A stretch of DNA of 21,542 bases from IMG/VR virus record IMGVR_UViG_3300049893_002597, positions 1 to 21,542 of that record. One strand, 5' to 3'. Positions 4,190-16,349 of the stretch are shown in pieces. Source of the stretch: a virus. How positions within the stretch are numbered: the stretch's first letter is position 1; the number at the start of each line of letters is the position of its first letter. Position numbers and translations under genes: made by a program. The notes beneath the pieces were generated by a model. The model did not search any database. It saw only the letters and a program-made list of their open reading frames with translations, and was not told the origin of the DNA.

Positions 4190-4224
4190 CCCGATGTGTG
4201 AAAAGCGGAGGGCGGCGCAACAAA

Positions 4225-4252
4225 GAAGGCCCCGGCGAAAGCCGGGGCCTTC
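4225..4252. terminator. Bidirectional-type terminator hairpin between convergent blocks
   Basis: A perfect 12-bp GC-rich stem (GAAGGCCCCGGC pairing with GCCGGGGCCTTC) is capped by a GAAA tetraloop. It sits in the only convergent junction of the window, between genes ending at 4097 (plus) and 4269 (minus). The run AAAG before the stem gives a short U-tract for minus transcripts, and the plus side has TTCT, so it could stop transcription from both sides. Confidence 0.85.
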
Positions 4253-4268
4253 TGCGTACCTGCTGCTA

Positions 4269-4565
4269 CTACTGCTGGACCATGTCCACCAGTTCGAGGG
4301 ACTCTAGTGAGTACCACACGTTGTCCATCACGAGGTCGTCGGAGAGCAGGGCCTTCCGAAGCTTTGCTTCGTCAACTATCTTCACGGCACCCTTCTTCGC
4401 CAGCTCCCTAACGCTCAGGCTACGCCCGTCGAAGGACTCGTACAACGTAGACATCACGCGGTCAGCCTGAGCCTTGGTACCCTTGAACGTGACGACGATA
4501 GTCGTGTCCTTGCCCGCAGGCTTAGCGGCCTTCTTGGTCGCGGCCTTCTTCTTACCGGCAGCCAT
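4269..4565 (-). CDS. Small basic protein with Lys/Ala-rich N-terminus, function unknown
   Basis: This 98-residue protein starts at ATG 4565 behind AAGGAGGT. Residues 1-20 are a Lys/Ala/Pro tail (MAAGKKKAATKKAAKPAGK) resembling the tails of bacterial and phage histone-like proteins. The remainder, TTIVVTFKGTKAQADRVMST onwards, looks like a compact alpha/beta domain. A nucleic-acid-binding role is suggested by the basic tail; the folded part matches no family I recognise. The start overlaps the stop of the preceding minus gene (TGATG), so it is translated in the same operon. It is the last gene of the minus block and ends just before the convergent terminator. A second protein with such a tail lies at the other end of the same block (10808-11488). 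Confidence 0.8.
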   Translation of the reverse strand: MAAGKKKAATKKAAKPAGKDTTIVVTFKGTKAQADRVMSTLYESFDGRSLSVRELAKKGAVKIVDEAKLRKALLSDDLVMDNVWYSLESLELVDMVQQ

Positions 4566-4756
4566 CAGCTACCTCCTTCCGCCCGTGACCGGGCTTCCTT
4601 CGTGGCCTTGCGGTCCACGCGTAGTTGCCGAGGGTCGAAGAACCTAGCGTGTCCGTAGGACACGTCCCGGCAGTCAACCTTGGTGTCTTCCACCCTGAGT
4701 ACCCGGAACCTCCGTCCCGGGTACAACAGGTGGCGTACTATGTCGCCTACCTTCAC
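4565..4756 (-). CDS. Hypothetical 63-residue protein
   Basis: GTG at 4756 overlaps the stop of the DUF932-like gene in a GTGA arrangement, and the stop overlaps the next start in TGATG. The product begins MKVGDIVRHLLYPGRRFRVL. The pattern VGDIVRH, RFRVLRVEDTKVDCRDV suggests a small beta-barrel (SH3- or KOW-like) fold, and the C-terminus is basic. That fold suggestion is inference from strand pattern alone. Tight coupling on both sides supports it being a true gene. Confidence 0.7.
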   Translation of the reverse strand: MKVGDIVRHLLYPGRRFRVLRVEDTKVDCRDVSYGHARFFDPRQLRVDRKATKEARSRAEGGS

Positions 4757-5706
4757 GACGCGGCGACCTCCCGAACCAGCGGCAGCAGCTGGTCCTTGAA
4801 CTTGTCACGCGTCAGAAGCTGACGGGCGAACAAGGTGTCCGAGTTGCGGTACTGGCGGTACCAGTCGAGGTACTCGATGCCAGCTTGGAACAGCCCGTAG
4901 GCCGTGAGCTTGTGCTCTTCGGGTATGGTGCGTCCGTCAAGGATGCGGTTCACAGAACCACGCGCCTTCCGGATGTTGGTCACCACCCTGTCCGACACGA
5001 TTCCCTCTGCCTCCGGCATCGGGATGAACTGACGGACGAACTGCTCCCTCTGCGCAACCGTGATGGGCGTGTTGGCAAGGTCCGTAGCCAGCTCGATGTA
5101 CTGCTGGAAGTCCTGCCTCGTCTTGAGGATGGCTCCCTTCGCAGCCTCGATACGCTCGACCACGTTACCCGTGTGGCGGAACCGGAATCCGACACCGTCC
5201 TTCTTCGCCTTCTTCTCTGCATACTGCAGAGTGTTGGCGCATTGGACCCTGACCTTGGTCGGCACAATCTTCCACGCACCTGACCCGTCGTGGCTCCAAT
5301 GGAGCAGCATCCACGGAAGCGTAGGACTCAGGTCACCCGGGACGTACTGCGGCTCGTCGAGCAGCAGCATAATCCAGCAGATGGCTCCGTCCTTTAGGAC
5401 ACCAGCGGTCTCGACCTTGGCACCCCGGCCAACGAGGGTCTCGACGATGTCCCAACCCACGCTGTTCTGCACCGGAGCATACGTGTCCTTCGCCATGTGC
5501 AGGACGACCTCGGTGTCGTCACGCACGATGGCCTTCCAGTCCTCGACCAGCTTGCCACCTACGGTGACGGGCTTCTCAATCACCGTGAAGTTGTGGCCAG
5601 CCAGATACGGGGCGTAGACAAGGTCCGGGTAGTCCGACAGGACCACGCCCTTGTTGTGCCACATCGGCTCTCTTACAGAGAAGCCGCTCGTGAAGTAATC
5701 GCTCAC
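4753..5706 (-). CDS. DUF932 / phage-plasmid-like protein (TIGR03299-type)
   Basis: The 317-residue protein starts at GTG 5706 in a GTGA overlap with the previous gene. Its N-terminus has REPMWHNKGVVL, and later come the segments TYAPVQNSVGWDIVETLV, KIVPTKVRVQCANTL and FRFRHTGNVVERI. These fit the DUF932 family of phage- and plasmid-encoded proteins, where an Arg/Pro-Trp-His start, a conserved VQN segment and an R-V-CxNT strand recur. Length agrees with the family (roughly 250-400 residues). Function is not established; members often sit near recombination or anti-restriction genes. No catalytic motif is evident. Confidence 0.8.
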   Translation of the reverse strand: MSDYFTSGFSVREPMWHNKGVVLSDYPDLVYAPYLAGHNFTVIEKPVTVGGKLVEDWKAIVRDDTEVVLHMAKDTYAPVQNSVGWDIVETLVGRGAKVETAGVLKDGAICWIMLLLDEPQYVPGDLSPTLPWMLLHWSHDGSGAWKIVPTKVRVQCANTLQYAEKKAKKDGVGFRFRHTGNVVERIEAAKGAILKTRQDFQQYIELATDLANTPITVAQREQFVRQFIPMPEAEGIVSDRVVTNIRKARGSVNRILDGRTIPEEHKLTAYGLFQAGIEYLDWYRQYRNSDTLFARQLLTRDKFKDQLLPLVREVAAS

Positions 5707-6101
5707 TCCTCATCCCACCTTTCCCACCACACGTCACTCGTAGTGGCTATCAGTTCCGTTGGTTCACCACGCACAACCTTGAGCCACATCCTAGCCTCGG
5801 GCTGGTACTTCATACCAGAGACACGGAAGTCGGCGGGGTCCAGCAAGTAGTGCCATGCCACGCCGTTGCCTTCGGCAACCACCTGACTGTCGAGGTAGTC
5901 ACCTTTGTCGCAGATTGCAAGAGCTATGCTCTTCATTCCGGGCTGCTCCGCCAGCCACTCCACGGTTCCTTTCTCTGGCACGCGTGGTGTCTTCGACATA
6001 CGCTGGTACACGAGGTTGTCGTTGACGTGTACGGTTACACCGGACGCGTCTTCGTTGACCACGATTCGGGCCAGCTCAAGGTCCACTTCGATGTGTCTCA
6101 T
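5703..6101 (-). CDS. Hypothetical protein (132 aa)
   Basis: It starts at ATG 6101 in an ATGA overlap with the helix-turn-helix gene and ends in a GTGA overlap with the DUF932-like gene, so it is locked into the operon. The product begins MRHIEVDLELARIVVNED and reads as an acidic alpha/beta protein ending in a Trp-rich SDVWWERWDEE. A preceding GGAGGT lies at the usual distance. No family is recognised. Confidence 0.75.
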   Translation of the reverse strand: MRHIEVDLELARIVVNEDASGVTVHVNDNLVYQRMSKTPRVPEKGTVEWLAEQPGMKSIALAICDKGDYLDSQVVAEGNGVAWHYLLDPADFRVSGMKYQPEARMWLKVVRGEPTELIATTSDVWWERWDEE

Positions 6102-6592
6102 CGCACCTCCTTCAACTCTGCGTACTCCGCAGGGGTGATGTCCCCTCTGTCCAGCAGCTCGTCGGCGGTTACTCCGTAACCACGCTTGACGTGCTCGTAC
6201 TCCCCGTACAGGGCGTCCAGCATCAGGGCCATGGCCTTCTTCGCTTTCAGGAATCGCTTGTGTACGGCTTGCCGTGACACCTGTTCCTCACGTGCGATGG
6301 CACTGATGGTACGTCCCTCCCAGAACACCTTGCGTAGCAAGGCATACTGGTTGTCGGTCAAGCCCCGGTGCATCACGAACTCGACACGTTCCCGCAGGTT
6401 CAACTGCTCCGCAGTCAACGCGTACTCGCTCTGGATGCCGGGGACTGACCCGACGAGGGGACGGAACGTCCCCCCGCCTTCGAACATCGCTTGCTCTGCG
6501 ACCCGAGCATCACCGTCGAAGAAGAAGAACTCGCCCCTTGGGCGGAACTCCAGCTGTTCGGCCTTGCTTGGGAGGCGTACGGCTTCGCTCAC
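6098..6592 (-). CDS. Helix-turn-helix protein with sigma-70 region 4-like domain
   Basis: GTG 6592 (behind GGGAGG, overlapping the preceding stop as GTGA) gives 164 residues; a longer frame upstream lacks a ribosome binding site. Residues 77-122 read as a helix-turn-helix of the sigma factor region 4/RinA-like type: GLTDNQYALLRKVFWEGRTI, then SAIAREEQVSRQAVHKRF. The turn and recognition helix (VSRQAVHKRFLKAKKAM) are typical. The N-terminal 75 residues are unrelated and include an EFFFFDGD stretch. There is no region 2, so it is not a complete sigma factor; a transcription regulator of phage genes, or a region-4-like anti- or co-sigma protein, is more likely. The C-terminal tail is acidic. Confidence 0.75.
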   Translation of the reverse strand: MSEAVRLPSKAEQLEFRPRGEFFFFDGDARVAEQAMFEGGGTFRPLVGSVPGIQSEYALTAEQLNLRERVEFVMHRGLTDNQYALLRKVFWEGRTISAIAREEQVSRQAVHKRFLKAKKAMALMLDALYGEYEHVKRGYGVTADELLDRGDITPAEYAELKEVR

Positions 6593-7134
6593 ACTTCCTC
6601 CCAGTCTGCGTCCATGACCTCGCACTCTTCCAACTCGGTGGCGTACTCGTTCTTCGACGCGTAGTACGGGTCGAAGTCCTGCGAGAGGTCTCCGGTGACG
6701 TACCGGAACACGTCGTCGTCATCGTAGATGTCGAAGTCAAGGTCGTTGGCGTCCAACTCGAACTCTTGCGAGTACTCCGTGGACGTAACTTCACGCACTT
6801 GGAACGTGACCATGATGTTACGCGACTTGACCTCAAGGTCCTCGTCGTTGACGACTACGTCGTACCCGGTGACCGTGGTGATGGTCTCCGGAGCCTTGTC
6901 GGGGGCCAAGTCGGACCCGTCCGTGTTCTCCGGTGTAACCTCACGTGTGTTGACCACGATGCTGGAGTCCAGCGAGTACTTGAACTTCGTTCCGAGCTGC
7001 TTAGCCATGGCTTCGGCAGCTTCCGCGACAGCCATGGCGACGCTGTCGCTACCGGGGTACATGCCCTCCACGTCGAAGGCTATGCCGACCTGTACCCTGC
7101 CCTCTGCACCACACTCGTTGTTGACCTTGCTCAC
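6589..7134 (-). CDS. Acidic protein, function unknown (181 aa)
   Basis: GTG 7134 follows GGAGGT and overlaps the stop of the preceding gene (GTGA). The protein begins MSKVNNECGAEGRVQVGIAF. Its middle includes an Ala-rich helix (VAMAVAEAAEAMAKQLG) and its second half is strongly acidic (DANDLDFDIYDDDD). Such charge is common in phage inhibitors that mimic DNA, but no specific family is recognised and the idea is untested. Gene order shows co-expression with the helix-turn-helix and DUF932-like proteins. Confidence 0.75.
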   Translation of the reverse strand: MSKVNNECGAEGRVQVGIAFDVEGMYPGSDSVAMAVAEAAEAMAKQLGTKFKYSLDSSIVVNTREVTPENTDGSDLAPDKAPETITTVTGYDVVVNDEDLEVKSRNIMVTFQVREVTSTEYSQEFELDANDLDFDIYDDDDVFRYVTGDLSQDFDPYYASKNEYATELEECEVMDADWEEV

Positions 7135-7394
7135 TTGCTACCTCCTTCGTAGCCGATGGTTCCGAAGCCAGGTTCCCAGCCTCCGTAGTGGATGTCGTCA
7201 GCCTCGACAACCACGCGAAGCTGCACGTAGTTACCGTCCGGCTGCTCGCACGTCCTGACCAGCTGCCCAATCAAGCTGTCACCTACGGTGAGCGAGGGGT
7301 TCTTGGCCCCACGAGACTCAGCTTGGGCTAGCAGGTCGCGGAGATTGCGTTCGCTAAGCGAAACGCGTATCTCCCCGTCTAGCCTTACATCCAT
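7131..7394 (-). CDS. Hypothetical protein (87 aa) downstream of the tRNA-like RNA
   Basis: ATG 7394 lies behind AAGGAGG; the frame is open further upstream, but that part runs through the structured RNA and is not protein-like. The product begins MDVRLDGEIRVSLSERNLRD and continues with a helix and several strands. A pattern of two beta strands, a LLAQAESR helix and VQLRVVVEAD suggests a small alpha/beta fold. No family is recognised. It is the first gene after the structured RNA at 7437-7550 and starts the coupled series reaching to 4269. Confidence 0.75.
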   Translation of the reverse strand: MDVRLDGEIRVSLSERNLRDLLAQAESRGAKNPSLTVGDSLIGQLVRTCEQPDGNYVQLRVVVEADDIHYGGWEPGFGTIGYEGGSK

Positions 7395-7412
7395 GCTGCC
7401 TCCTTCCATACG

Positions 7413-7433
7413 CGTGGTACCCAGTGTACCACG
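7413..7433 (-). other. Hairpin 3' of the tRNA-like RNA
   Basis: On the minus strand CGTGGTAC-ACTGG-GTACCACG forms a perfect 8-bp stem with a 5-nt loop. It begins three bases after the discriminator base of the tRNA-like element and ends 18 bases before the next start codon. No U-run follows. It could mark the 3' end for processing or limit transcript flow. Confidence 0.6.
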
Positions 7434-7436
7434 TAG

Positions 7437-7513
7437 TGGAGCGGGTGGGAATCGAACCCACGTGCTGTCGGTTGCGCTTCGGCTTTGCCGACAGTCGAGA
7501 CCACTTCCGCCCC
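7437..7513 (-). ncRNA. tmRNA-like tRNA-like domain without tag domain
   Basis: On the minus strand 77 nt fold as follows. The acceptor stem GGGGCGG (7513-7507) pairs with CCGCTCC (7444-7438), including a G3-U70 wobble, followed by discriminator A (7437). The T-arm is GTGGG-TTCGATT-CCCAC (7461-7445), perfect. A helix CTGTCGG/CCGACAG (7494-7488 with 7471-7465) replaces the anticodon stem and has a 16-nt loop. The D-region AAGTGGTCTCGA is too short for a D-stem. G3-U70 plus A73 is the alanyl-tRNA synthetase identity set. A stemless D-region ending in TCGAC, and a P2 helix in place of an anticodon arm, are tmRNA hallmarks. There is no tag reading frame or pseudoknot domain, and CCA is not encoded. 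No anticodon can be assigned, so an ordinary tRNA is unlikely. A decayed tRNA or tmRNA is the main alternative. Confidence 0.7.
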
Positions 7514-7514
7514 G

Positions 7515-7550
7515 TCGAGGTGCCACGGACTCCCCTCCGTAGCACCTCAA
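7515..7550 (-). other. 15-bp hairpin immediately 5' of the tRNA-like RNA
   Basis: Minus-strand bases 7550-7536 pair with 7529-7515 (15 pairs, two of them G-U) around a GGGGAG loop at 7535-7530. It ends one base before the tRNA-like element and starts 12 bases after the stop codon of the upstream gene. It probably insulates or directs processing of the RNA, or acts as an attenuator. Confidence 0.75.
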
Positions 7551-7561
7551 GTTGACGCGTA

Positions 7562-7786
7562 CTACTCTGCGTTGGCCCACTCAGGCCTAGCGAACACCCT
7601 GATGCCAGCCTCGTCGAGAGCTTCGCTCAGCCCCTTCAATCCATCGTTCGTGTACCACACGTCAATGGGCGTCTTGACCACCCTCCACGGGTGTTGGATG
7701 AGGTACTGCAGCGACTCTGCCTCCTTACGAGTGAGCGTAAGCACGACACGCTCTTCGTGGACCTCCTTGACCTCGCACCTTGCCAT
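7562..7786 (-). CDS. Hypothetical protein (74 aa)
   Basis: ATG 7786 follows ACGGAGGAAACGT, a good ribosome binding site. The product begins MARCEVKEVHEERVVLTLTR. An amphipathic segment TRKEAESLQYLIQHPWRVV is followed by TNDGLKGLSEALDEAG. No family is recognised. It is the last gene before the structured RNA, and its upstream leader contains one copy of the conserved 28-bp intergenic element at 7808-7835. Confidence 0.75.
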   Translation of the reverse strand: MARCEVKEVHEERVVLTLTRKEAESLQYLIQHPWRVVKTPIDVWYTNDGLKGLSEALDEAGIRVFARPEWANAE

Positions 7787-7807
7787 ACGTTTCCTCCGTT
7801 CGTCGAA

Positions 7808-7835
7808 CCGTCACCCTTCAACGACCCGCCCGTCG
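7808..7835 (-). repeat. Conserved intergenic element, copy B
   Basis: On the minus strand this 28-bp segment starts CGACGGGCGGG and ends GTGACGG. It matches the element at 9150-9177 at 24 of 28 positions by eye. It lies in a 67-bp gap in an otherwise tightly packed operon, 21 bases upstream of the start at 7786. A CGAC...GTCG symmetry is visible in this copy. Possible roles are internal promoter, operator or RNA processing site. Confidence 0.6.
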
Positions 7836-7853
7836 CAACGTGTGAGCATAGCT

Positions 7854-7985
7854 TCACTCGTGCTCAGGTGACCCGCACCAGTTGAACCTCGGCCAGTCCC
7901 AGTAGTCTGCATCGCAGTCCTGACAGGACCCCACTTCGTCTACATCGTAGACGGCGAAGCAGCAGGGACATTCGTACAGCTTCAT
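7854..7985 (-). CDS. 43-residue zinc-ribbon protein
   Basis: ATG 7985, behind GGAGGG, encodes MKLYECPCCFAVYDVDEVGS and 23 more residues, including CQDC. The two CXXC pairs (CPCC and CQDC), about 14 residues apart, form a rubredoxin-like zinc ribbon. The start overlaps the stop of the upstream membrane micro-protein as ATGA. The small size, clean ribosome binding site and zinc pattern make it a convincing real gene. Its partner is unknown. Confidence 0.8.
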   Translation of the reverse strand: MKLYECPCCFAVYDVDEVGSCQDCDADYWDWPRFNWCGSPEHE

Positions 7986-8101
7986 CGGTCCCTCCACTCG
8001 TGCATCATCTCGTGTAGTTCTACACACAAGATGAGAACTAGCACGCCAGCCACCGCTATCATCGCGGTCTCTAGCAGAACTTCTGCTACTTCCTTCATCA
8101 T
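7982..8101 (-). CDS. 39-residue single-span membrane protein
   Basis: ATG 8101 (or ATG 8098) follows TAGGAGGG, which overlaps the stop of the GP88-like gene. The product begins MMKEVAEVLLETAMIAVAGV and continues LVLILCVELHEMMHEWRDR. One hydrophobic helix, about residues 9-28, is flanked by an acidic N-terminus and a His/Arg-rich tail. The stop overlaps the next start (ATGA). Its function is unknown; it is one of three micro-membrane proteins in the window. Confidence 0.75.
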   Translation of the reverse strand: MMKEVAEVLLETAMIAVAGVLVLILCVELHEMMHEWRDR

Positions 8102-8106
8102 CCCTC

Positions 8107-8760
8107 CTAGTGCTCGATGAAAGCAAGACGGAAGTCTTGCTTCTTGATGGTGAAGCAGAGACCGCAGGTCTCACAGTCAGGCTGCCTCTCCAGCTGTTCC
8201 GGGCAGACTGCGTAGCCTTCGGCTCGTGCGGTCTGCTCGTCGGGGAATATCCGTGCCTCCAGCAACGGAATCCTCGGGAGCCTCTCGACGTTGTCGTCGT
8301 CTGTCGAGTACCAAACCTTGAGGTTTGGCTTGCGTGACAGCCATGACACGGCACCCGTCATGCTCATGTCCACGTCCCAGCTACGCGTGTAGAGCCAGAA
8401 CATAATGTCGGGCCTGCTGTCTACGACAGCACCGATGGTCTCGGCGTGAGCCTCATCGTAGATGTCTCCGGCGACGTGGAACCTGAACAAGCTGCCGTAA
8501 GGCAGCGCGGCAACCTCAGCCAGCAGTTTCAGCTCATACGCGTGAGACTCTGTCTCAAGCAGGGTGAGGTTACGAGCGTAGGCTGCTCCGGAGTTGGAGT
8601 ACCGACGCTGGAAACGCTTTGCGTAGCAAGTCTTCCCACAGAACTCGGTCTCACCGGGGCAACTAGCCCCGGCAGTCAGGCTCGTGTGGTACACGTTCTT
8701 GCCTATCTTCGAGCTACCTCGAAGCACGAGTTTCGGTGCAGCCTTCGGCTTACTTACCAT
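8107..8760 (-). CDS. Cys-rich phage protein resembling the GP88 family
   Basis: The 217-residue protein starts at ATG 8760 (GGAGGG site). It has an N-terminal cysteine cluster CPGETEFCGKTCYAKR (Cys34, Cys41, Cys45), a central LFRFHVAGDIYDEAHAE, a strand FWLYTRSWD, and a C-terminal cluster of Cys186, Cys196, Cys199 and Cys202 (CETCGLC). The order Cys cluster, RFH-GD, YTRS resembles phage proteins of the gene product 88 type, which are thought to bind an iron-sulfur cluster or zinc and whose activity is unknown. It lacks the classic CX3CX2C radical-SAM motif. The gene overlaps the previous one by 11 bases. Several hairpins (8121-8142, 8311-8328, 8654-8672) lie within its coding sequence. Confidence 0.65.
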   Translation of the reverse strand: MVSKPKAAPKLVLRGSSKIGKNVYHTSLTAGASCPGETEFCGKTCYAKRFQRRYSNSGAAYARNLTLLETESHAYELKLLAEVAALPYGSLFRFHVAGDIYDEAHAETIGAVVDSRPDIMFWLYTRSWDVDMSMTGAVSWLSRKPNLKVWYSTDDDNVERLPRIPLLEARIFPDEQTARAEGYAVCPEQLERQPDCETCGLCFTIKKQDFRLAFIEH

Positions 8761-8935
8761 CAGCCCTCCTTACGTCAGACGCGTCGAACGAGAACCGTAT
8801 GGGGTTCCCGGCTTCCGTGAGGAACTCTACTCGGTAGAAGTTCCTGTCCCACCGGAGCATCGGGCCGAGGGCTACGCCCTCTCTTTCGTGGCCGTTGCTG
8901 AACTTGGCAATGACGCGTGTTCCTTTGCGTATCAT
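8750..8935 (-). CDS. Hypothetical protein (61 aa)
   Basis: ATG 8935, behind GGAGGCTGAG, gives MIRKGTRVIAKFSNGHEREG and 41 more residues. A longer frame upstream runs through the preceding gene's end and has no ribosome binding site. The strand pattern TRVIAKFSNG, GVALG, YRVEFL, IRFSF is compatible with a small beta-barrel (SH3-like) domain. It begins two bases after the preceding stop codon and overlaps the next gene by 11 bases, so it is in the operon. Confidence 0.7.
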   Translation of the reverse strand: MIRKGTRVIAKFSNGHEREGVALGPMLRWDRNFYRVEFLTEAGNPIRFSFDASDVRRADGK

Positions 8936-8936
8936 C

Positions 8937-9137
8937 TCAGCCTCCGCAACTCTGTTCGATGTTGACGATGCCTTCGCCTCCGGCGAAGTACTCCGCGTCA
9001 ACCTCGTCTGCAGCTTCTATGAAGCTGATGTCTTTGTCGGGGTCAGCGAAAGTGACCACCCACACGTGAGCCTCCGGCTCGTGCTCGTTGTTACACGTGG
9101 GGTCTCCGACCCTTGCGAACTTGGTGCTGGGCATCAT
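8937..9137 (-). CDS. Hypothetical protein (66 aa)
   Basis: ATG 9137 (a second ATG follows directly) lies behind AAAGGAG. The product begins MMPSTKFARVGDPTCNNEHE and contains HVWVVTFADPDKDISFIEAA, ending in SCGG. The layout, with VVTFADPDKD then a helix DEVDAEYF, suggests a short alpha/beta domain. No family is recognised. Its 57-bp upstream gap holds the conserved element copy A. Confidence 0.7.
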   Translation of the reverse strand: MMPSTKFARVGDPTCNNEHEPEAHVWVVTFADPDKDISFIEAADEVDAEYFAGGEGIVNIEQSCGG

Positions 9138-9149
9138 GGCTCCTTTCAG

Positions 9150-9177
9150 CCGTCACTCCCCATCGTCCCGCCCGTCG
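9150..9177 (-). repeat. Conserved intergenic element, copy A
   Basis: The minus strand begins CGACGGGCGGG and ends AGTGACGG, matching copy B (7808-7835) at 24 of 28 positions. It lies 12 bases upstream of the start at 9137, just before the ribosome binding site, in a gap after the phosphoribosyltransferase gene. Conservation between otherwise unrelated leaders suggests function. Confidence 0.6.
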
Positions 9178-9194
9178 TAGGCGTGGACGAAGTC

Positions 9195-10076
9195 TCACTC
9201 GTCTATGTCGTCGTCCCAGTCTTCGTAGTCCTCAGGGTCTCCCATGATGGCTTCAGCCATCTGACGCGCCTCCTGCACCTTCGGTGCATGGTTGTTCATG
9301 GCCCAGTTTCGGACTCCCTCGACCCATAGGGTCGAGTCAGCCGTGGTGCCGTAGCTGGTCACCAACGCGTGGTCGAATGCTCCCCTCGCGCCCTGTTCCC
9401 AGTCGTATTTCGCGTTCCAGTACGCGTCGGAGTCAAGCACTCCGTAGTCGTCGGTGAACTCATCCTGAGTTGGCTCTGCGGGAAGCGAAACGTCCGCCTG
9501 CAGTTGCCATTGCCACCAGACCTTGCCTTCGGCATTGACTTCGGGACACCACCACTCTTTACGCGTGGCCTGAAACGCGCCGACGAAAGACCACGTGGGT
9601 CGGTACCAACGCATGGTCTCCATGATGCGTGCGACGGTGTCTCCGGAGCTGACGAAATCGTCTACGACGATGTACTTGGGGTTGGGCTTGTCGAACCCGA
9701 CAGCTCCCTCTACGAGGGACCCTGAGTGACTCCCATCATCAGGCTTCCGGACTACCACAAGTGGTAGGCCAAGCTGGTCGGCAATCGCGGGGCCTACAAG
9801 TAGGCCACTCGTGCCGCTCACCACGATGGCGTCAAACGCGAAGTCGAGGTTGTACATCCTCTCCCACTCCGAGGCTATCGCCTCGGAAGCCTCAACCACG
9901 TGGTTCCACCAACTCGAAGAGTTGGACCGGAGCTTGGGAGTGTCGTCGTTCTCCGGTGCCGTGGACAACAGCTTTCCGAGGTACTCGGAACTGACTCCGT
10001 GGTGGTTACGGTACGCGTGGTCTTCCAGACGACGCGCATAGTGGACCTTTCGCTTGACTTGCTCACTCATTGCCAT
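9195..10076 (-). CDS. Type I phosphoribosyltransferase-domain protein
   Basis: ATG 10076 gives 293 residues; GTG 10088 and ATG 10070 are in-frame alternatives. The PRPP-binding motif is complete: YIVVDDFVSSGDT (Asp139, Asp140). Upstream strands DAIVVSGTSGLLVGPAIADQ and LPLVVVRKPDD fit the PRTase fold. Such enzymes transfer phosphoribose between PRPP and a base, or regulate pyrimidine genes. The extra N-terminal region (1-80) and the long Trp-rich C-terminal part with an acidic end (DYEDWDDDIDE) are unusual, so the substrate is unknown; nucleotide salvage for phage DNA synthesis is the simplest guess. The start codon lies in the stem of a perfect hairpin (10071-10087), which may lower translation. 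Confidence 0.85.
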   Translation of the reverse strand: MAMSEQVKRKVHYARRLEDHAYRNHHGVSSEYLGKLLSTAPENDDTPKLRSNSSSWWNHVVEASEAIASEWERMYNLDFAFDAIVVSGTSGLLVGPAIADQLGLPLVVVRKPDDGSHSGSLVEGAVGFDKPNPKYIVVDDFVSSGDTVARIMETMRWYRPTWSFVGAFQATRKEWWCPEVNAEGKVWWQWQLQADVSLPAEPTQDEFTDDYGVLDSDAYWNAKYDWEQGARGAFDHALVTSYGTTADSTLWVEGVRNWAMNNHAPKVQEARQMAEAIMGDPEDYEDWDDDIDE

Positions 10077-10087
10077 CGTAGATGGCA
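10071..10087 (-). promoter_or_regulatory. Start-codon hairpin of the phosphoribosyltransferase gene
   Basis: TGCCATC-GTA-GATGGCA (plus strand) is a perfect 7-bp inverted repeat that covers the ATG at 10076 and abuts the AAGGAGG ribosome binding site. In the transcript it would sequester the start codon. It is one of many small hairpins in this block, so its regulatory meaning is inference. Confidence 0.45.
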
Positions 10088-10109
10088 CCTCCTTCCGAGG
10101 GGCTTCCTA

Positions 10110-10131
10110 CCCCTCATCGTCCCGGGCGTCG
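10110..10131 (-). repeat. Conserved intergenic element, copy C (partial)
   Basis: The minus strand reads CGACGCCCGGGACGATGAGG, sharing the CGACG..CGGGACGATG core with copy A at 9150-9177. The tail differs: GAGGGG here pairs with CCCCTC at 10096-10101 to form a hairpin. It lies about 33 bases upstream of the phosphoribosyltransferase start. Confidence 0.5.
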
Positions 10132-10155
10132 TGATGCGTGGCCTTCGGCTACGCG

Positions 10156-10590
10156 TTAGCCGAGAGTCAGTCCCGACGACTCTGCCATGGCTACCCAGTA
10201 GCCATACTCGTGAGCACCGCTTGACTCGCCGCATGGCTCACAGAGCCATAGCACCGCGACCAACTCAGTCGGGTCACTTGGCCTGAGCACTCTGTGCTCC
10301 CAGCGTGACGTGTGGTACGTTTCTGCCATGCAGAAATCACACGTGAACGTGCCACCCGTGATGTCATTCGTGGGTACACGAAACAGCTCGCGGAGCCAAG
10401 CTTCGCTTGAGCTGACCTTCATCTCGACTTCTTCGAAGTCGCCTAGGTAGTCGGTGTCTTCACCGTAGGTGCAGTCGGGGCATTGACCCTGATAAGGGTC
10501 ACGGCACGAACTACACGTGCTCAGACCACAGTCTGAGCAGAGCTTCATGTCCTCGGTCTCCTTCGGGAGACCGCAGTTGTGACACTTCAT
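10156..10590 (-). CDS. Multi-zinc-ribbon protein (144 aa)
   Basis: ATG 10590 follows CTGGAGG. Six CXXC pairs are visible: Cys3/6, 18/21, 26/29, 37/40, 84/87 and 117/120, enough for three zinc ribbons or a treble-clef array. The first four lie within 40 residues (MKCHNCGLPK to GQCPDC). The layout resembles zinc-ribbon proteins that bind nucleic acids or protein partners, but no specific family can be named. A hairpin with arms CGGCTA/TAGCCG spans the stop codon. At least eight perfect hairpins (such as 10187-10205, 10233-10249, 10484-10501 and 10519-10538) lie inside the gene, among the densest in the window. Confidence 0.75.
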   Translation of the reverse strand: MKCHNCGLPKETEDMKLCSDCGLSTCSSCRDPYQGQCPDCTYGEDTDYLGDFEEVEMKVSSSEAWLRELFRVPTNDITGGTFTCDFCMAETYHTSRWEHRVLRPSDPTELVAVLWLCEPCGESSGAHEYGYWVAMAESSGLTLG

Positions 10591-10612
10591 CGTGCTTCCT
10601 CCAGTCTCTGGC

Positions 10613-10717
10613 TTACAGCCAGAACGGGTGGCCCGAATGGGCCGCAGACAGGCTCACACAGCTGACGACAGTCAGCACGAGCCACATCAGGAACAGAATC
10701 CACCATGTCTTCGACAT
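10613..10717 (-). CDS. 34-residue membrane protein
   Basis: ATG 10717 sits behind GGGAGGTGAGTGC. The product begins MSKTWWILFLMWLVLTVVSC and ends HSGHPFWL. A hydrophobic helix spans about residues 5-24 after a single Lys, which predicts a one-pass membrane peptide; the Cys at position 20 after VVS also resembles a lipoprotein-like cleavage site, though the match is weak. It is the third tiny membrane protein in the window. Its coding sequence holds hairpins at 10705-10719, 10660-10676 and around the stop codon. Confidence 0.65.
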   Translation of the reverse strand: MSKTWWILFLMWLVLTVVSCVSLSAAHSGHPFWL

Positions 10718-10740
10718 GCACTCACCTCCCTTCGGTGTCT

Positions 10741-10788
10741 TGTGACCTTCGGTCACACAGGGAAGGAGCGGAACTTGTGCTCCGCTCC
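10741..10788 (-). terminator. Two terminator-like hairpins after the zinc-finger/KA-rich gene
   Basis: Downstream of the gene ending at 10808, the minus strand holds GGAGCGGA/TCCGCTCC (10765-10772 with 10781-10788, 8-bp) and TGTGACC-TTC-GGTCACA (10741-10757). They lie between that gene and the next ribosome binding site. No strong U-tract follows, so they may attenuate rather than end transcription. Confidence 0.45.
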
Positions 10789-10807
10789 AACCCAGCGTGG
10801 TCGAAGA

Positions 10808-11488
10808 CTACGCGTAGTTGGCCAGCACCTCCATGAGAGCCTTGGCGAGGTCCTTGGCACTCGCCTCAGCCTTCGGCTGGGCCTTGGGCTTCGCAGCCTT
10901 CTTCGAAGGCGTCTTCGACGCCTTGCCCTTGACGGTCTTGGAAGGCGTAGCCTTCTTGGCCGCTCTGGTCTTGGCTGCCTTGGCAGCCCGTGCGGGCTTG
11001 AGGTTGTCGTTGACAACCTTCCATTGCAGCTTGTTGACCGCCGAGCGAAGTTCCTCCGGAACTTCCGCACCGGCTGCTCCGGGCCACTCCGTGGCCTTCA
11101 TGTCAACGAAGTCCTCAGCCTTCGGCTGTGCCTTCGCAGGCTTCTTCGAAGCCTTGGGCGACTTCGCAGCCTTCGGCTGCTTCTTCGCGGTCTTCACCTT
11201 CGGTGCTCCCTTCTTCCCGGCCTCAGCTGGCGCGGCAGTCTCTGACTGCTCCCACGGCTGGGGCTTTCCTTGGACCTTACGGTCCACAGCCGCCTTCACA
11301 TCCTTTACAGGATGTTTGGGCAAGTGCCGGTCTTTCAGACCGTGCTGAGTCTGGAACGTCCTGCCGCAGACCAAGCAGCGGTAGCTGACACGTGAGGCCT
11401 TCGGCCTTGCGCGTTCAGCATCCTCGATTTCGAGGTCAGTCTCCTCCGGAGACTCAGCCTCGACCTTCACCTTCGGTGAGTACCTCAC
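10808..11488 (-). CDS. Zinc-finger protein with histone H1-like Lys/Ala/Pro tail
   Basis: GTG 11488 behind AAGGAGGG gives 226 residues; an in-frame upstream GTG at 11524 would read through the ribosome binding site and a hairpin. After an acidic stretch (EAESPEETDLEIEDAERAR), residues 38-59 form a C2H2-type finger: Cys38, Cys41, His55, His59, with Phe and Leu near the classical core places but 13 residues between Cys41 and His55 instead of 12. From about residue 60 the protein is Lys/Ala/Pro-rich (KTAKKQPKAAKSPKASKKPA), as in histone H1 and bacterial HU/Hc1 tails, interrupted by a folded insert (VPEELRSAVNKLQWKVVNDN). It probably binds and compacts DNA. A eukaryote-style finger joined to an H1-type tail is unusual in a phage. 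Confidence 0.75.
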   Translation of the reverse strand: MRYSPKVKVEAESPEETDLEIEDAERARPKASRVSYRCLVCGRTFQTQHGLKDRHLPKHPVKDVKAAVDRKVQGKPQPWEQSETAAPAEAGKKGAPKVKTAKKQPKAAKSPKASKKPAKAQPKAEDFVDMKATEWPGAAGAEVPEELRSAVNKLQWKVVNDNLKPARAAKAAKTRAAKKATPSKTVKGKASKTPSKKAAKPKAQPKAEASAKDLAKALMEVLANYA

Positions 11489-11502
11489 GGCACCCTCCTT
11501 TC

Positions 11503-11619
11503 TGCCCCTTCGGGGCACAGACACCTATACCGAATGGCTTAGGCCATTCGCGGAAAGGCAGCGACCAGCTGAACCGCTGCCTAACCGTGACGGGCCGAAG
11601 GCCTTGTGCGTGGTTAGGC
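11503..11619 (-). other. Cluster of four hairpins in gap before the KA-rich gene
   Basis: Four perfect-stem hairpins follow each other: TGCCCC-TTC-GGGGCA (11503-11517); CGAATGGC-TTAG-GCCATTCG (11531-11550, 8-bp); GGCAGCG/CGCTGCC (11557-11563 with 11575-11581); and GCCTAACC/GGTTAGGC (11579-11586 with 11612-11619) with an inner GGCC-GAA-GGCC. The last spans the stop codon of the upstream gene at 11614. They may form terminators or attenuators between the two genes. Confidence 0.6.
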
Positions 11620-11979
11620 GTCGAGGTTCTCGGCAAGCCACTCGAACGAAGCACCGTCCCAGCACTCCGTGCACCAAAGCGTAGCTTCGCGCTGAGTGTC
11701 ACCTGCGTTCACGACCTCGATGGTGCCGTTGTCGTCGTTCTGGAATGAAACATTCCAAACCGTGACTTCGCCGACCACCAAACAGTCACCTGTGGAGTCG
11801 CATGAGCTGCAAGCAGCTTCGTGCGCCACTCCGTACGCTGTTATGACCGTCGAGAAGTCCTCGAAAGCTTCGTCGTCAAGGACGACGAACGCGTCGAACT
11901 TGTCGAACTTGGCCAGCAGGTTGTCGTCCTCCAACTGCGCAAGGACGAAGTCCGGTACGTGGTTGGTGCTGGAGTCCAT
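11614..11979 (-). CDS. Zinc-binding hypothetical protein, first gene of minus block
   Basis: ATG 11979 behind GGAGGG gives 121 residues (MDSSTNHVPDFVLAQLEDDN onwards); the frame extends upstream but without a ribosome binding site. Cysteines 57, 60 and 66 (CSSCDSTGDC) and 103 and 106 (CTEC) could bind zinc. The N-terminus is acidic and helical. No family is recognised. It is the first gene after the divergent control region and so probably the earliest-expressed gene of the minus operon. A GCCGGT-GAA-ACCGGC hairpin lies just upstream of its ribosome binding site. Confidence 0.7.
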   Translation of the reverse strand: MDSSTNHVPDFVLAQLEDDNLLAKFDKFDAFVVLDDEAFEDFSTVITAYGVAHEAACSSCDSTGDCLVVGEVTVWNVSFQNDDNGTIEVVNAGDTQREATLWCTECWDGASFEWLAENLDA

Positions 11980-12347
11980 CGGGACCCTCCTTCCGCCGGT
12001 TTCACCGGCTGTACGTGTCAACGGCTCTTGCCGTCGTGAAGCTCCGGCCAGTCCGGAACCTCGGCCAGCAGCTTAGCACGCCGAACCAATGTCGGTTTAG
12101 AGCGAAGCTCTATGGGCCTATTGACTCCCAGATTCCAGCCTCAGCCTCGTGTCACATAGGGGTACACACCATGCCACATGCAGCAGTGAAACTGCCACGC
12201 GCAGCATCGCACGTGAAGAATCTTCGATTCTGAGGACCGGTTCGCCCCCCATTGGCCCGCGTACCCGTGCGTGGTAAGACCTAAATGCACCTCGAAATAC
12301 GCTGTACGGACGGAATCGGACTTTATTCACGGCGACCTGCGGGAACA

Positions 12348-12363
12348 CCACTACATATAGTGG
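12348..12363. promoter_or_regulatory. Inverted repeat, possible operator
   Basis: CCACTA-CATA-TAGTGG is a perfect 6-bp inverted repeat, AT-rich compared with its surroundings. It ends 7 bases upstream of the TTGACA hexamer at 12371, a typical place for a regulator binding site. Confidence 0.4.
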
Positions 12364-12370
12364 GTCCGGG

Positions 12371-12400
12371 TTGACACCACCGGCATAATGGTTGCAAGAT
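12371..12400 (+). promoter_or_regulatory. Candidate promoter for the packaging/head genes
   Basis: TTGACA at 12371-12376 is a consensus -35 element. CAAGAT at 12395-12400 (18-bp spacing) is a fair -10. It would start transcripts about 90 bases before the small terminase gene. The -10 match is weak, so a role is likely but unproven. Confidence 0.5.
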
Positions 12401-12500
12401 GTGCAGGATGTGCAGGACGAAGTCCACGGCGGGTTGTTCCGCCGGTCAATATCGAAGAGAACCCCACGATTTAGCCGAATCCATGGCGGAAAGGACACCT

Positions 12501-12893
12501 GTGTCCGAACCAGACGGCAACCTCACCGAAGCTAAGAGGCATCAGTGGACACCCGAGGAAGCTGCCGAGATGGCACGCCTAGGTGGTTTGGCGTCCGCTG
12601 AGGCCCGCAAGCGGCGGGCCACCATGACCCCCAAGGAACGAGCCATAGAGGCCATCAGGGACAAAGGCGACAGGCTGATTCAGGAACTCCTGAACGCTGC
12701 CCTAGGGGAAGGCGACTTCCACGACCTTGAACTCCGTAGCCGGACCACCGCTCTGATGCGGTGTACGGACTACCTCATCGGGAAGCCCACGACCATGGGG
12801 CCGCTGGAGACCGCGTCGAGCGACGACGCTCCTCCAGAGCCGGACGGGTTCACCATCGAGGTCATAGACCCGCCAGAGCGTGCCGATGCCTAA
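12501..12893 (+). CDS. Putative terminase small subunit
   Basis: GTG 12501 follows GGAAAGGA and gives 130 residues; ATG 12483 is an in-frame alternative without a ribosome binding site. The sequence WTPEEAAEMARLGGLASAEARKRRATMTPKE (split here at RLGG/LASA) looks like an N-terminal DNA-binding helical segment. It is followed by an oligomerising helical part (AIEAIRDKGDRLIQELLNAA) and an acidic/Pro-rich tail (DDAPPEPDG). Small terminases bind the packaging site and recruit the large subunit. The call rests on size, helical build and position, ending 8 bases inside the large terminase gene; no sequence family was recognised with certainty. Confidence 0.65.
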   Translation: MSEPDGNLTEAKRHQWTPEEAAEMARLGGLASAEARKRRATMTPKERAIEAIRDKGDRLIQELLNAALGEGDFHDLELRSRTTALMRCTDYLIGKPTTMGPLETASSDDAPPEPDGFTIEVIDPPERADA

Positions 12894-14376
12894 GACCATC
12901 ACCCTGAACAAGGGGAATCAGGAAGAGTTCGTCAAGTGCGAGGACCCGTTCGTCGGGTACTTCGGAGGTGTCGGGTCGGGGAAGACCTATGCGGGGCTTG
13001 TCAAAGGGATTATGATGAGCCAACAACCGTCAACCACCGACACAATATATGGTGCCCGTGGACTGGTTGCCGCCGTCAGCTACCCGGTTCTTGAGGACGT
13101 GGTCCTGACCCAGTTCTTCGAAATCATCGAGGGCACGGGCCTGCTGCTCAGGTTCGAGAAAGCCAAGAAGAAGGCGTTTCTGAAGACCCCTTCAGGCAAA
13201 GAAGCCGAAATCCAGTTCCGGTCACTGGACAAACCCGAATGGATGCGAGGCCGCGAGCTGAGCTGGTTCTTCATTGACGAGGGCAGGCACGTGGACGGGA
13301 ACGCTTGGCGCGTTCTCGTCGGACGTCTGCGCCAGCCCGGTGGGTACAAGCACCGTGGGTGGGTCTGCTCCACGCCGAACGGGCACGACTGGATGTTCGA
13401 CAGGTTCCACGAAGACTCGGATGAGCACGAGGACGGGTACCGCTGGTTTGGTGCCCCGACGTGGGACAATGCCAAGAACCTGCCTGAGGAGTACCTACAG
13501 AACCTCGTCAAGGACTTCAAGGAAGGCTCGAACTACTACCGGCAGGAAGTCCTCGGAGAGTTCGTGGGTGTCGTAGATGGTGCTGTGTACCCTGATTGGA
13601 ACCCAGTGACACAAGTCATGGACCCCGTCCGGTACGACCCGGACTGGCCCCTGTACAGCTTCTGGGATTTCGGGATGGGAGACTTGGGAGTCTGTGTCTT
13701 CGCTCAGCTGCCTAAGGTCAAGCGGACACGGCAGCTCCCCCTAAAGGGGAGCATGCCTGTGTCCGTGGAGCTTGACGAGCTTCGAGTAGTAGGGTACTTG
13801 GCAAGCAAGGACTGGAACTCATGGCGGTGGGCCGACGAATGGTCGGCGTACTGCGACACGTACTTCGGAGGCCGGAGGCCCGTACGGAACATCGGGGACC
13901 CAGCCGGAGCCACCCGACAGATTGGCTCTGGGTCCTCCGTGATTCAGGACCTGACCGCCGCAGGCGTACCCATGGAGGCTGCACCCCGCCGTCCCCGTGA
14001 CTACGGGCTGCGCGTCATGTACAACATGACCGCAGACAACCGTGTCTGGGTCTCCAAGGAAATGGCCACGGAAGTGGGCCGTGCCCTGAGTTCCTACAAG
14101 TGGCCGGTTGACAGTTCTGGCAATAAGGTAGGGAGTGAACCAATCCACGACTGGACGTCGCACTACAACGACGCACTCCGCTACGGTGTGACAGCACTGG
14201 GGGACCTGTACGCAGACGAGCCTGCAGGCCCTGAGCCGGAATCGCCACCTCCGGACGCATACGACGCCTTGATGGAGTCGTTGCTGGAACCGCCAGCAAA
14301 GGGGTATATCGGACACGATATGCCGCGAGGTACCGGTAGGCTTGCCCTGCCGCCCGGACTAGTGGTAGCGAGGTAG
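12886..14376 (+). CDS. terL: Terminase large subunit
   Basis: ATG 12886 (GTG 12880 is an in-frame alternative) gives 496 residues. The ATPase shows Walker A FGGVGSGKT (Lys33), Walker B LSWFFIDEG, and the coupling motif CSTPNG. The C-terminal RNase H-like nuclease shows its three acidic positions: YSFWDFG (Asp261), IGDPAG (Asp338) and HYNDALRYG (Asp429). The enzyme cuts concatemeric DNA and pumps it into the prohead through the portal. Length and motif order are normal. The ATGCCTAA overlap with the small subunit gene couples their translation, and the portal gene follows two bases after its stop. Confidence 0.96.
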   Translation: MPKTITLNKGNQEEFVKCEDPFVGYFGGVGSGKTYAGLVKGIMMSQQPSTTDTIYGARGLVAAVSYPVLEDVVLTQFFEIIEGTGLLLRFEKAKKKAFLKTPSGKEAEIQFRSLDKPEWMRGRELSWFFIDEGRHVDGNAWRVLVGRLRQPGGYKHRGWVCSTPNGHDWMFDRFHEDSDEHEDGYRWFGAPTWDNAKNLPEEYLQNLVKDFKEGSNYYRQEVLGEFVGVVDGAVYPDWNPVTQVMDPVRYDPDWPLYSFWDFGMGDLGVCVFAQLPKVKRTRQLPLKGSMPVSVELDELRVVGYLASKDWNSWRWADEWSAYCDTYFGGRRPVRNIGDPAGATRQIGSGSSVIQDLTAAGVPMEAAPRRPRDYGLRVMYNMTADNRVWVSKEMATEVGRALSSYKWPVDSSGNKVGSEPIHDWTSHYNDALRYGVTALGDLYADEPAGPEPESPPPDAYDALMESLLEPPAKGYIGHDMPRGTGRLALPPGLVVAR

Positions 14377-14378
14377 CG

Positions 14379-16349
14379 ATGGCCCAGAAGCTGATGGCCG
14401 GATACAAGGTCTACGACAACGACGAAGAGAAGCTCAAGGTCTACAACCATCGCATGACGATGGCGGAAGAAGACTGGCAGGAGCTTGCTCCCGAGGTTGA
14501 GAAGTGGGCCAAGCGGTACCGGAACAAGGGTTGGGAGAACACCGAAGAGACTCCGCAGGGCCACATGATTCGCAGTGGTACCGGGCGTAGCATCATTGAC
14601 TCCCTCTACGGCATGTTGACGAACGTCAACATTGACCTGAACCTAGTACAGATAGGCGCGGGCACGCCTGACCAAGCAGAGCTTGCGCAGGAAGCCATGC
14701 ACGTCGAGTGGCGTAAGACCGATGTTGAGCGCAAAGGCCGGAAGGGAATCAAGTCCGGACTGCTGAACGGCATCGGGTTTGCCAAGGTGTACTACGAGTT
14801 CGAAGAGTACGAAGAAGAAGTACCCCGTGACCCAGAACAGGTGTACGGGGAAATGCGTCAGATAATGACCGGCGCGGCCAAGAACGGCCTGCCGCAACCC
14901 AGCCACGACCAGCTCGCTGAGCTTGTCCCGGCTACAGAAGTGGAGACCAATGTCGAGAAAGACCGCCTGTGCGTTGACTATGTCCCTATATCAGAAGTCC
15001 GATGGGACCCTACGGCCCGAGACTGGTGGGACGTCCGATGGGTGGCTCAGGTCACTCTTGTGCATCCCGACGAAATCCAGAACAACCCGGACTACGAAGA
15101 GTACGTAAAGGGTGACAGTGTCGCGTCAAAGGCGTTTCGTGAAATCAAGTCTCAGACGCAAGCGGTTACAGGACGAGTACTTGACTCTCGTGCGACCAAC
15201 ATTGACGGAGAGCCGTTCTCGGATGATGGTCGAGTCAAGCTCGTCGAGTTCTGGGACTTCGAAACCGGGACAGTCAGCCACTTCATCCTAGGGGAAGAGT
15301 GGCTGCTGCAGGAGTACCCGAACCAGCTGGCGTTCATGCCGGACATCTACAACCGCAACCCGTTCGTAGCTTACATCCCGACTGAGGACCCCTCAGCCGT
15401 GCGCGGTGTCAGCGAAATGGAGTGCATGTGGACCACGCTGGACGAAATCAACCAGTACCGCAGCGACCTAGCTAACCACACCGACAGGCTCATCCCCAAG
15501 ATTTACGCGCCTGAGGGCACGTTCGACAAGGCGGGCAAAGCCGCGCTGCAGTCGCGTGAGTGGGCAGCTGTGGCCGAAATGAAGAAGGGCCACGTCGCAG
15601 CCGAGGTCGGTTCTATCCAGCCTCCCGCAGTTCCTTCGGAACTATACAACCTTCCAGACAGACTCGAACGCGGACTCCGCGACGAGACTGGCGTGACGGA
15701 GGCGATGCGGGGCCTGTTCACCGGCGGGCGCAAGACCGCCACGGAGGCGCAGGAAGTTGCCGCCGGAGGCCTGAGCCGTCAGGCCGAGCGGCGTAACGCC
15801 ACCGAGAACTACTGGATTGACATAGCCCAGCGCATGCTGTGGCTCATGCAAATCAACTACGACCACGACCAGATGGTGCGCCTGACCGACTGGGAAGGCG
15901 ACGTCGAGTGGGAGTGGACCAACGAAGACATAGCCATCGAGGCGTTCATCGAGGTCGGCTTGACCCCGAAGGAGGACCTGACGTACCAGAGCAGGTCCGA
16001 GCGTGTCATGGCCTTGGCCAACTTCATCGGGCCGCTGCCCGAGACTGACCGTGTCGAGCTTGCTCGCAAGTTCGGAACCGAGCTTGGGTTCACGGTCAAG
16101 GAAATGCGTGCGTTGGTCAAGACGCCACAGGAAGTCCAGCAGGAGCAGCAGGCACAACAGGACCACGAAATGAACGTGGCCGCCGCTGCTGGGTCACCGC
16201 CACCGCCCGGTGCGGGTGGAGGCGTGGTGCCCGCATTCTCGGGTGCCGACATCAACGCAGGAGCTGACATGGGCATACCTTCTGAGGTTGCCGGTGGAGG
16301 CGTGCCTGTGGGTGAGGACGCGATAGCTGAGGCCCCCGCCGTATTCTAG
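14379..16349 (+). CDS. Portal protein
   Basis: ATG 14379, behind GAGGTAGCG, encodes 656 residues. Portal-type features include an N-terminal YRNKGWENTEE and SGTGRSIIDSLYGML, a central segment NPFVAYIPTEDPSAVRGVS, and the characteristic helical stretch DEINQYRSDLANHTDRLIPK, followed by GVTEAMRGLFTGGRKTATEA. The dodecameric ring forms the DNA entry vertex and the docking site for the terminase and tail. The C-terminus is Gln-, Gly- and Pro-rich (QQEQQAQQDH, SPPPPGAGGG) and likely disordered. Position directly after the large terminase supports the call strongly. Confidence 0.92.
   Translation: MAQKLMAGYKVYDNDEEKLKVYNHRMTMAEEDWQELAPEVEKWAKRYRNKGWENTEETPQGHMIRSGTGRSIIDSLYGMLTNVNIDLNLVQIGAGTPDQAELAQEAMHVEWRKTDVERKGRKGIKSGLLNGIGFAKVYYEFEEYEEEVPRDPEQVYGEMRQIMTGAAKNGLPQPSHDQLAELVPATEVETNVEKDRLCVDYVPISEVRWDPTARDWWDVRWVAQVTLVHPDEIQNNPDYEEYVKGDSVASKAFREIKSQTQAVTGRVLDSRATNIDGEPFSDDGRVKLVEFWDFETGTVSHFILGEEWLLQEYPNQLAFMPDIYNRNPFVAYIPTEDPSAVRGVSEMECMWTTLDEINQYRSDLANHTDRLIPKIYAPEGTFDKAGKAALQSREWAAVAEMKKGHVAAEVGSIQPPAVPSELYNLPDRLERGLRDETGVTEAMRGLFTGGRKTATEAQEVAAGGLSRQAERRNATENYWIDIAQRMLWLMQINYDHDQMVRLTDWEGDVEWEWTNEDIAIEAFIEVGLTPKEDLTYQSRSERVMALANFIGPLPETDRVELARKFGTELGFTVKEMRALVKTPQEVQQEQQAQQDHEMNVAAAAGSPPPPGAGGGVVPAFSGADINAGADMGIPSEVAGGGVPVGEDAIAEAPAVF

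Follow-up and report, generated by a model that had tools for sequence, protein, structure and literature searches.

The window analysed here is an entire virus contig of 21.5 kb (IMG/VR record IMGVR_UViG_3300049893_002597, positions 1 to 21,542), in which part of a leftward operon is packed with very short, perfect DNA hairpins. This operon spans ~12.2 kb down to 4.27 kb and codes for a DUF932 protein, a sigma-region-4-like helix-turn-helix protein, a GP88 protein, a phosphoribosyltransferase-like protein and several orphans. The right part of the window is a podovirus-like packaging and head module. Most hairpins belong to one type, called field-type triloops below, which are closed by C-G and have a GNA or ANA loop on one strand and a TNC or TNT loop on the other. 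The main features are as follows.

1232-3187: family-A DNA polymerase
4224-4253, no strand assigned: GC-rich hairpin with a 13-bp stem and a GAAA loop, flanked by convergent genes whose ends are at 4097 (+) and 4269 (-); probable bidirectional terminator and left edge of the field-bearing unit
4260-7900, minus strand: weak continuation of the field over the distal leftward genes; 1.65 field-type triloops per kb, 11 hairpins versus 3.9 in codon shuffles
7900-12240, minus strand: dense hairpin field in the promoter-proximal part of the leftward operon; ~60 stems of at least 6 bp, 6.7 field-type triloops per kb
8107-8760, minus strand: GP88-like gene (PF17338), with 8 hairpins on conserved, unchanged residues
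9195-10076, minus strand: phosphoribosyltransferase-like gene, 12 hairpins
10156-10590, minus strand: gene of a small cysteine-rich protein, 9 hairpins
10808-11524, minus strand: gene of an Ala/Lys-rich protein, 16 hairpins (22 per kb)
12232-12480, no strand assigned: divergent intergenic region, where the hairpins end; right edge of the field and, from gene orientation, presumed promoter region of the leftward operon
12880-14376: TerL, right-hand module
14379-16349: portal, right-hand module
17429-18400: major capsid protein (MCP), right-hand module

The first-pass annotation had described a dense field of about 40 perfect inverted repeats at 8121-12231. The field proved to be denser than that, with 60 perfect stems that are 6 bp or longer and have loops of 3-5 nt, compared with a first-order Markov mean of 3.2 (sd 1.7). 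Stems of at least 5 bp number 83 versus 13.8 in the Markov model, and those of at least 7 bp 31 versus 0.83. The comparison with codon-preserving shuffles proposed at that stage gave a mean of 6.8 +- 2.3 hairpins and a maximum of 14 in 300 shuffles, far below the 51 hairpins of the field genes. Taken singly and in the order listed above, the four main genes have observed and expected numbers of 8 and 0.5, 12 and 1.6, 9 and 0.7, and 16 and 1.8, and none of 200 shuffles matched the observed values. These null models preserve codons or dinucleotides, not every higher-order composition. Perfect mini-hairpins hold a quarter to a third of the operon bases, and their spacing is near that of random placement with exclusion, which rules out a nucleoprotein array with regular spacing.

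Outside the field, the window harbours ~3.5 hairpins per kb, a mild excess of 2-4 times the Markov expectation that is comparable to the 0.6-3.5 per kb of ordinary phages. Field-type triloops are absent from 0.8-4.1 kb and reach 0.33 per kb in 12.4-21.5 kb, compared with 1.65 per kb in 4.26-7.9 kb and 6.7 per kb in 7.9-12.24 kb; the feature therefore follows the leftward transcription unit, and it increases toward the presumed promoter end. The earlier view that the density is limited to the one region thus holds for the rightward genes, which are nearly free of such loops, but not for the left minus-strand genes. Neither of the outcomes named at that stage as refuting, an equal count in codon shuffles or an even density along the window, was seen.

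With stems of at least 6 bp, 34 of the 41 triloops in 7.9-12.24 kb have a C-G closure, and 29 of these 34 are C-(G/A)NA-G or C-TN(C/T)-G. The first reading of the sequence was right both in describing mostly C-G-closed triloops and in calling the stems unrelated, as no common stem sequence was found. Examples, all on the minus strand, illustrate the range.

8121-8142, minus strand: AAGCAAGAC-GGAA-GTCTTGCTT, 9 bp, at the left end of the field as first annotated
8158-8172, minus strand: sense GAGACC-TGC-GGTCTC, encoding ETCGL
10425-10441, minus strand: CGACTTC-TTC-GAAGTCG, with a C-GAA-G loop on the sense strand
10554-10573, minus strand: CGGTCTCC-TTCG-GGAGACCG
10741-10757, minus strand: TGTGACC-TTC-GGTCACA, intergenic
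10906-10924, minus strand: AAGGCGTC-TTC-GACGCCTT, overlapping two neighbours
11047-11065, minus strand: GAAGTTCC-TCC-GGAACTTC, with a C-GGA-G loop on the sense strand
11503-11517, minus strand: TGCCCC-TTC-GGGGCA, at a gene start
12217-12231, minus strand: AGAATC-TTC-GATTCT, the final hairpin of the field

Searches in IMG/VR found TerL relatives at 26 loci, and 16 are at least 44% identical to the TerL of the contig called L007. Two related phages, with TerL proteins 44-47% identical, carry fields as well, namely L007 (with its near-twin L008) and L009. Both fields lie in the same place as that of the window, upstream of the terminase genes and on the leftward strand, both are as dense as that of the window or denser, and both consist overwhelmingly of C-G-closed triloops (75 hairpins in ~4.1 kb of L007 and 54 in ~3.4 kb of L009). 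The field-bearing sequences are thus three independent and distant metagenome contigs, two of which end within the field; values for the three fields are given below in the order window, L007, L009. The structural genes of these contigs are normal. L007 and L009 have several small genes in common. The weak BLAST matches listed between the early genes of the window and those of L007 and L009 included no convincing homology, and the L007 and L009 fields apparently lie over different early genes from those of the window.

A search with a conserved 19-mer matched L007, L008 and L009 only, and a scan with the zinc protein encoded in L007 and L009, which brought up 35 contigs, found no field apart from those already known. 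Two long relatives, G1 and G2 (contigs L004 and L006), have no field, although their TerL proteins are closer to that of L007 than the TerL of the window is; the distribution of the field is therefore patchy. Neither the other TerL relatives nor ~30 other IMG/VR contigs have such a field, and they have few such loops. The same is true of Karimac, phiFa, Timshel and MW202803, of which parts or all of the genomes were covered in a small survey of other phages. In the AT-rich contigs L048 and L049 (28% GC), short hairpins number 17 per 2 kb, but their loops are not of the C-G-closed type.

Some further observations concern the related contigs. L007 and L008 are 99.8% identical, too similar for hairpin change to show, and 15 of their 18 differences are clustered at L007 2721-2790, upstream of the first leftward gene, in what looks like a recombined or immunity-type patch. 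A hairpin-free stretch beside the first leftward gene (L007 2654-2850, L009 2165-2364) is conserved at 77% identity and is probably a promoter or an origin. The intergenic spacers of L007 at 161, 735, 1164, 1510 and 1864 contain CCCCCAGAGGGGG hairpins that are related to one another and show covariation in their outer stem pairs.

We examined the perfection of the stems in the three fields. Triloop stem lengths peak at 6-7 bp, whereas the chance background drops ~fourfold with each base pair. In L007, triloop stems of 4 to 9 bp number 9, 12, 20, 32, 6 and 2, and the Markov values for 4 to 7 bp are 12.6, 3.3, 1.0 and 0.3; 4-bp stems are hence at background and 7-bp stems ~100-fold above it. Triloop stems with one mismatch number 7, 1 and 3, near the ~3 expected by chance in each field under the Markov model, compared with 41, 60 and 42 perfect ones (11 versus 143 in total). 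G-U mismatches in the sense strand occur within 0, 0 and 2 stems. At the first unpaired position, G-U is found 31 times and A-C 27 times, and wobble pairs are therefore not favoured. Many perfect repeats with hardly any imperfect ones among them are the pattern expected of template switching or conversion. In contrast, the hairpins that precede the terminase in G2 are ordinary spacer hairpins, and in the corresponding G1 hairpins between one and four positions are often unpaired.

The comparison of L007 with L009 showed how the hairpins change. In nine comparisons of shared hairpins, with both directions counted, 43 pairs are unchanged, 12 show double compensatory changes and 6 are broken. Thus, CCTGAAC-TTC-GTTCAGG corresponds to CTGACC-TTC-GGTCAG, with the amino acids LNFVQ and LTFGQ. 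Similarly, TGACCAC-TAC-GTGGTCA corresponds to CGACGGA-CAC-TCCGTCG, with four of seven pairs changed and non-synonymous changes in both arms (DDHYVVS and DDGHSVA). Such concerted, amino-acid-changing substitutions in both arms are likewise a mark of template-switch or conversion-type repeats. The check proposed at first reading, whether relatives keep hairpins while the stem sequence changes, is positive for some, but 21 of the 30 compared hairpins are present in one phage only. In the gene of the zinc protein, the best conserved one, the L007-L009 alignment is ungapped across phage-specific hairpins. The zinc protein of L009 (1193-1492, minus strand) reads CQKDQD where that of L007 reads CQGCQD; the L007 cysteine is absent in L009 beside a phage-specific hairpin.

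The triloop centres of the three fields fall on codon positions 1, 2 and 3 in the ratio 30:53:5 (chi-square p = 3e-9). The rare class (5) pairs first with second positions, and the depletion of the phase that pairs third positions is again as found for template-switch or conversion-type repeats. The hairpins had been said to occur in different reading frames; several phases are indeed occupied, but not at random, and this ratio indicates that protein constraint filters the hairpins. In the GP88 gene, the sole field gene with usable homologues, hairpins lie over conserved residues (the TCGL encoded by the hairpin at 8158-8172 is also present in the Karimac homologue), and 11 of 11 shared conserved positions are unchanged, which implies strong filtering by protein function.

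We also determined, for each protein, the sites at which synonymous choice alone permits a C-closed triloop with a 6-bp stem, on the assumption that amino-acid order is otherwise random. For the three fields, the number of such sites expected from amino-acid shuffles is ~25, 15 and 15. The actual proteins have room for 52, 42 and 36, and hairpins are realised at 29, 31 and 20 of them. The realised sites thus match or exceed the whole potential of the shuffled proteins. In hairpin-free stretches, unused compatible sites are at chance or above (15 versus 14.3, 8 versus 5.9 and 11 versus 5.8). Therefore, the hairpins did not arise by exhausting synonymous freedom; it is the proteins that follow them.

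Four findings point to copying of one arm from the other at the DNA level: imperfect stems are nearly absent, double changes alter amino acids, free synonymous sites are neglected and G-U pairs are lacking. We put at about even the chances that the field is the product of such copying and not of tuning of the messenger RNA. In the process that we infer, single-stranded DNA of the leftward operon would fold into tiny hairpins nucleated by the C-G-closed GNA or ANA triloops, whose stability in DNA is unusual, and polymerase or repair synthesis would use one arm as template for the other by template switching or quasipalindrome correction. A perfect stem of 6-8 bp would arise in one step, and mismatches would later be mended in the same way. 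Purifying selection on the proteins would purge most events that break essential residues, which would account for the codon-phase bias, and tolerated events would change amino acids. Three observations suggest a role of transcription: the coincidence with one operon, the gradient toward its promoter end and, in the window, the sense-strand predominance of RNA-type loops (22:7, p = 0.008). Transcription would make the folding strand accessible, for instance as the displaced strand of an R-loop, and might so confine the copying.

Several results weigh against arm copying. The test for arm asymmetry, in which one arm would be kept and the other overwritten, gave a non-significant p = 0.19 for 21 hairpins; L007 and L009 are too strongly diverged for the purpose. 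The sense-strand bias of the loops is found in the window only, as the ratios are 29:26 in L007 and 20:14 in L009. With any closing pair and loops of 3-4 nt, the excess of potential sites is smaller (427 versus 344, with 110 realised). Compatible C-closed sites are realised at 0 of 10 and 0 of 6 in both TerL genes, and at 5 of 64 in the rightward genes of the window; protein tolerance alone therefore fails to explain the boundary of the field, and some further factor must limit the process to the operon. Noncoding DNA is hardly denser in hairpins than coding DNA (coding versus noncoding 14.6 versus 13.3, 21 versus 27 and 19 versus 23 per kb), although protein-filtered mutation should favour it. 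Finally, the narrow peak of stem lengths and the strict triloop geometry could mark a selected element just as well. Template-switch mutagenesis, one of the two origins considered in the first-pass annotation, thus gains from the perfection of the stems, the compensatory and amino-acid changes and the random spacing, but not from the arm test, and it needs an added cause for the operon restriction.

The strict geometry and the position-conserved hairpins keep selection on DNA hairpins a serious rival, to which we give something over one chance in four. The hairpins would extrude from supercoiled DNA and serve as binding sites or in early-transcription control, resembling the hairpins of phage N4 without being N4 promoters, and each would be maintained in perfect form by selection. 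Most field triloops have the N4 geometry (a stem of 5-7 bp and a C-G-closed GNA-type triloop) on one strand or the other, and in N4 loops of this kind, which form sheared G:A pairs, extrude when supercoiling is at its physiological level (PMC4496689). The indifference of RNA-type loops to the strand in L007 and L009, the compensatory changes and the confinement to one operon also fit this explanation. However, the stems have no common sequence: the second stem base, among the conserved stem bases of the N4 type, is T, C, G or A, and G is not preferred. Moreover, ~60 copies lie in 3-4 kb with near-random spacing, the majority are not common to the relatives, free synonymous sites were not taken first, and gain and loss without imperfect intermediates are hard to achieve by point mutation alone. 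Copying may also be the source of the hairpins and selection their keeper, both at once.

A bolder proposal, which we hold to be somewhat less likely still, at little better than one chance in five, would go beyond either explanation. A locally targeted hairpin-writing activity, by a polymerase or repair system of phage or host, might rewrite the early genes arm by arm as a diversity generator; or the operon might be an array of selected DNA mini-hairpins that extrude and take part in controlling early genes, like the N4 hairpin promoters in dispersed form.

Selection for a folded early messenger RNA, the other origin proposed in the first-pass annotation, fares worse, and we consider it improbable. 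Such folding would protect or regulate the leftward transcript through RNase resistance, attenuation or evasion of defence. The field does track a single transcription unit and thins out away from the promoter end, the loops in the window are sense-biased, and the field transcripts fold better than their codon shuffles (z -3.5 to -7.2). However, a gene with only two such hairpins reaches z -5.2, and a control gene outside the field is as structured, relative to its codon shuffles, as the field genes; whole-transcript folding energy is therefore not specific to the field. The virtual lack of G-U pairs within stems and of any G-U excess at their ends, the near-chance number of one-mismatch stems, the nearly equal numbers of RNA-type loops on both strands in L007 and L009 and the unused synonymous opportunities also argue against it.

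Insertion of small palindromic elements, as in Rickettsia, would place hairpins inside open reading frames and could be likened to the five L007 spacers with related hairpins, but it is very improbable given the unrelated stems, and it is contradicted by the ungapped zinc-protein alignment. Least probable of all is an effect of chance, codon usage or assembly, since shuffles come nowhere near the observed counts and the field contigs, metagenomic as they all are, stem from several assemblies and have open genes and normal structural genes.

Other features of the window were also noted. At 7434-7513 (minus strand), an Rfam tmRNA match (51.9 bits, model 1-374) covers just 80 nt, a tmRNA-like tRNA domain that lacks the messenger part, and ARAGORN gave no prediction. 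A Recombination endonuclease VII domain (PF02945, 3.5e-21) is encoded at 369-779 (minus strand). This family includes Holliday-junction and cruciform resolvases, and it is likewise annotated in Timshel, which has no field. The window has no DNA match to annotated phages, and its portal protein reaches 23% identity in one annotated phage record. Searches with GP88 and the phosphoribosyltransferase-like protein yielded distant homologues only, viral scans with GP88 and the polymerase gave no matches, and genome scans with TerL and MCP revealed neither a host nor a field-bearing prophage.

The open-access literature that we searched contains no description of a single operon with a field of 15-25 hairpins per kb. 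The prevailing view has template switching seed hairpins everywhere, if only weakly, and this operon would be its extreme natural case, in which the creation, correction and loss of hairpins and their cost to proteins can be measured. If the hairpins are functional DNA structures, they would represent a previously unknown mode of phage early gene control. With either explanation, analyses of codon bias, mRNA folding or dN/dS would be misled in such genes.

The field can be compared with four known systems. Rickettsia palindromic elements likewise lie within protein-coding genes, but they are insertions of one related family, whereas the phage hairpins are in-place substitutions with unrelated stems. 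DNA mini-hairpins with a GNA triloop and a sheared G:A pair are very stable and extrude from supercoiled N4 DNA (PMC4496689). The promoters of the N4 virion RNA polymerase share with the field a short DNA hairpin, a 3-base loop, the sheared G:A and C-G closing pairs and a location in the early region (PMC4496689). However, the N4 promoters are three in number and conserve their stem and flanking bases, compared with ~60 hairpins with unrelated stems here, and no virion RNA polymerase was seen in this 21.5-kb partial genome.

Template switching creates and maintains hairpins, with DNA-stable loops favoured (PMC8794818), and RNA-DNA hybrids are reported to initiate quasipalindrome mutations in transcribed yeast DNA (PMC3820800). 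The likeness to the field is that such switching is an established route to perfect hairpins, made and kept in a single step, and has been reported in coding genes and in transcribed DNA with RNA-DNA hybrids (PMC8794818, PMC8604942, PMC3820800). In contrast, the cases described so far are isolated events or slight excesses over whole genomes. A further likeness is to the coding palindromes of Nematomorpha mitochondria, which are perfect inverted repeats in functional genes without an excess of imperfect copies; their paired non-synonymous changes preserve pairing, repeats that pair third positions are scarce, gains and losses occur, and conversion or template switching has been proposed (PMC6649704). 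Perfection, paired amino-acid changes, phase shortage and turnover are all seen in the phage field too, and the argument for copying at the DNA level is the same as that made for these palindromes (PMC6649704). The Nematomorpha repeats are up to 284 bp long and belong to animal mitochondria, whereas the phage stems are 6-9 bp long, end in C-G-closed triloops and recur every 40-70 bases in one operon.

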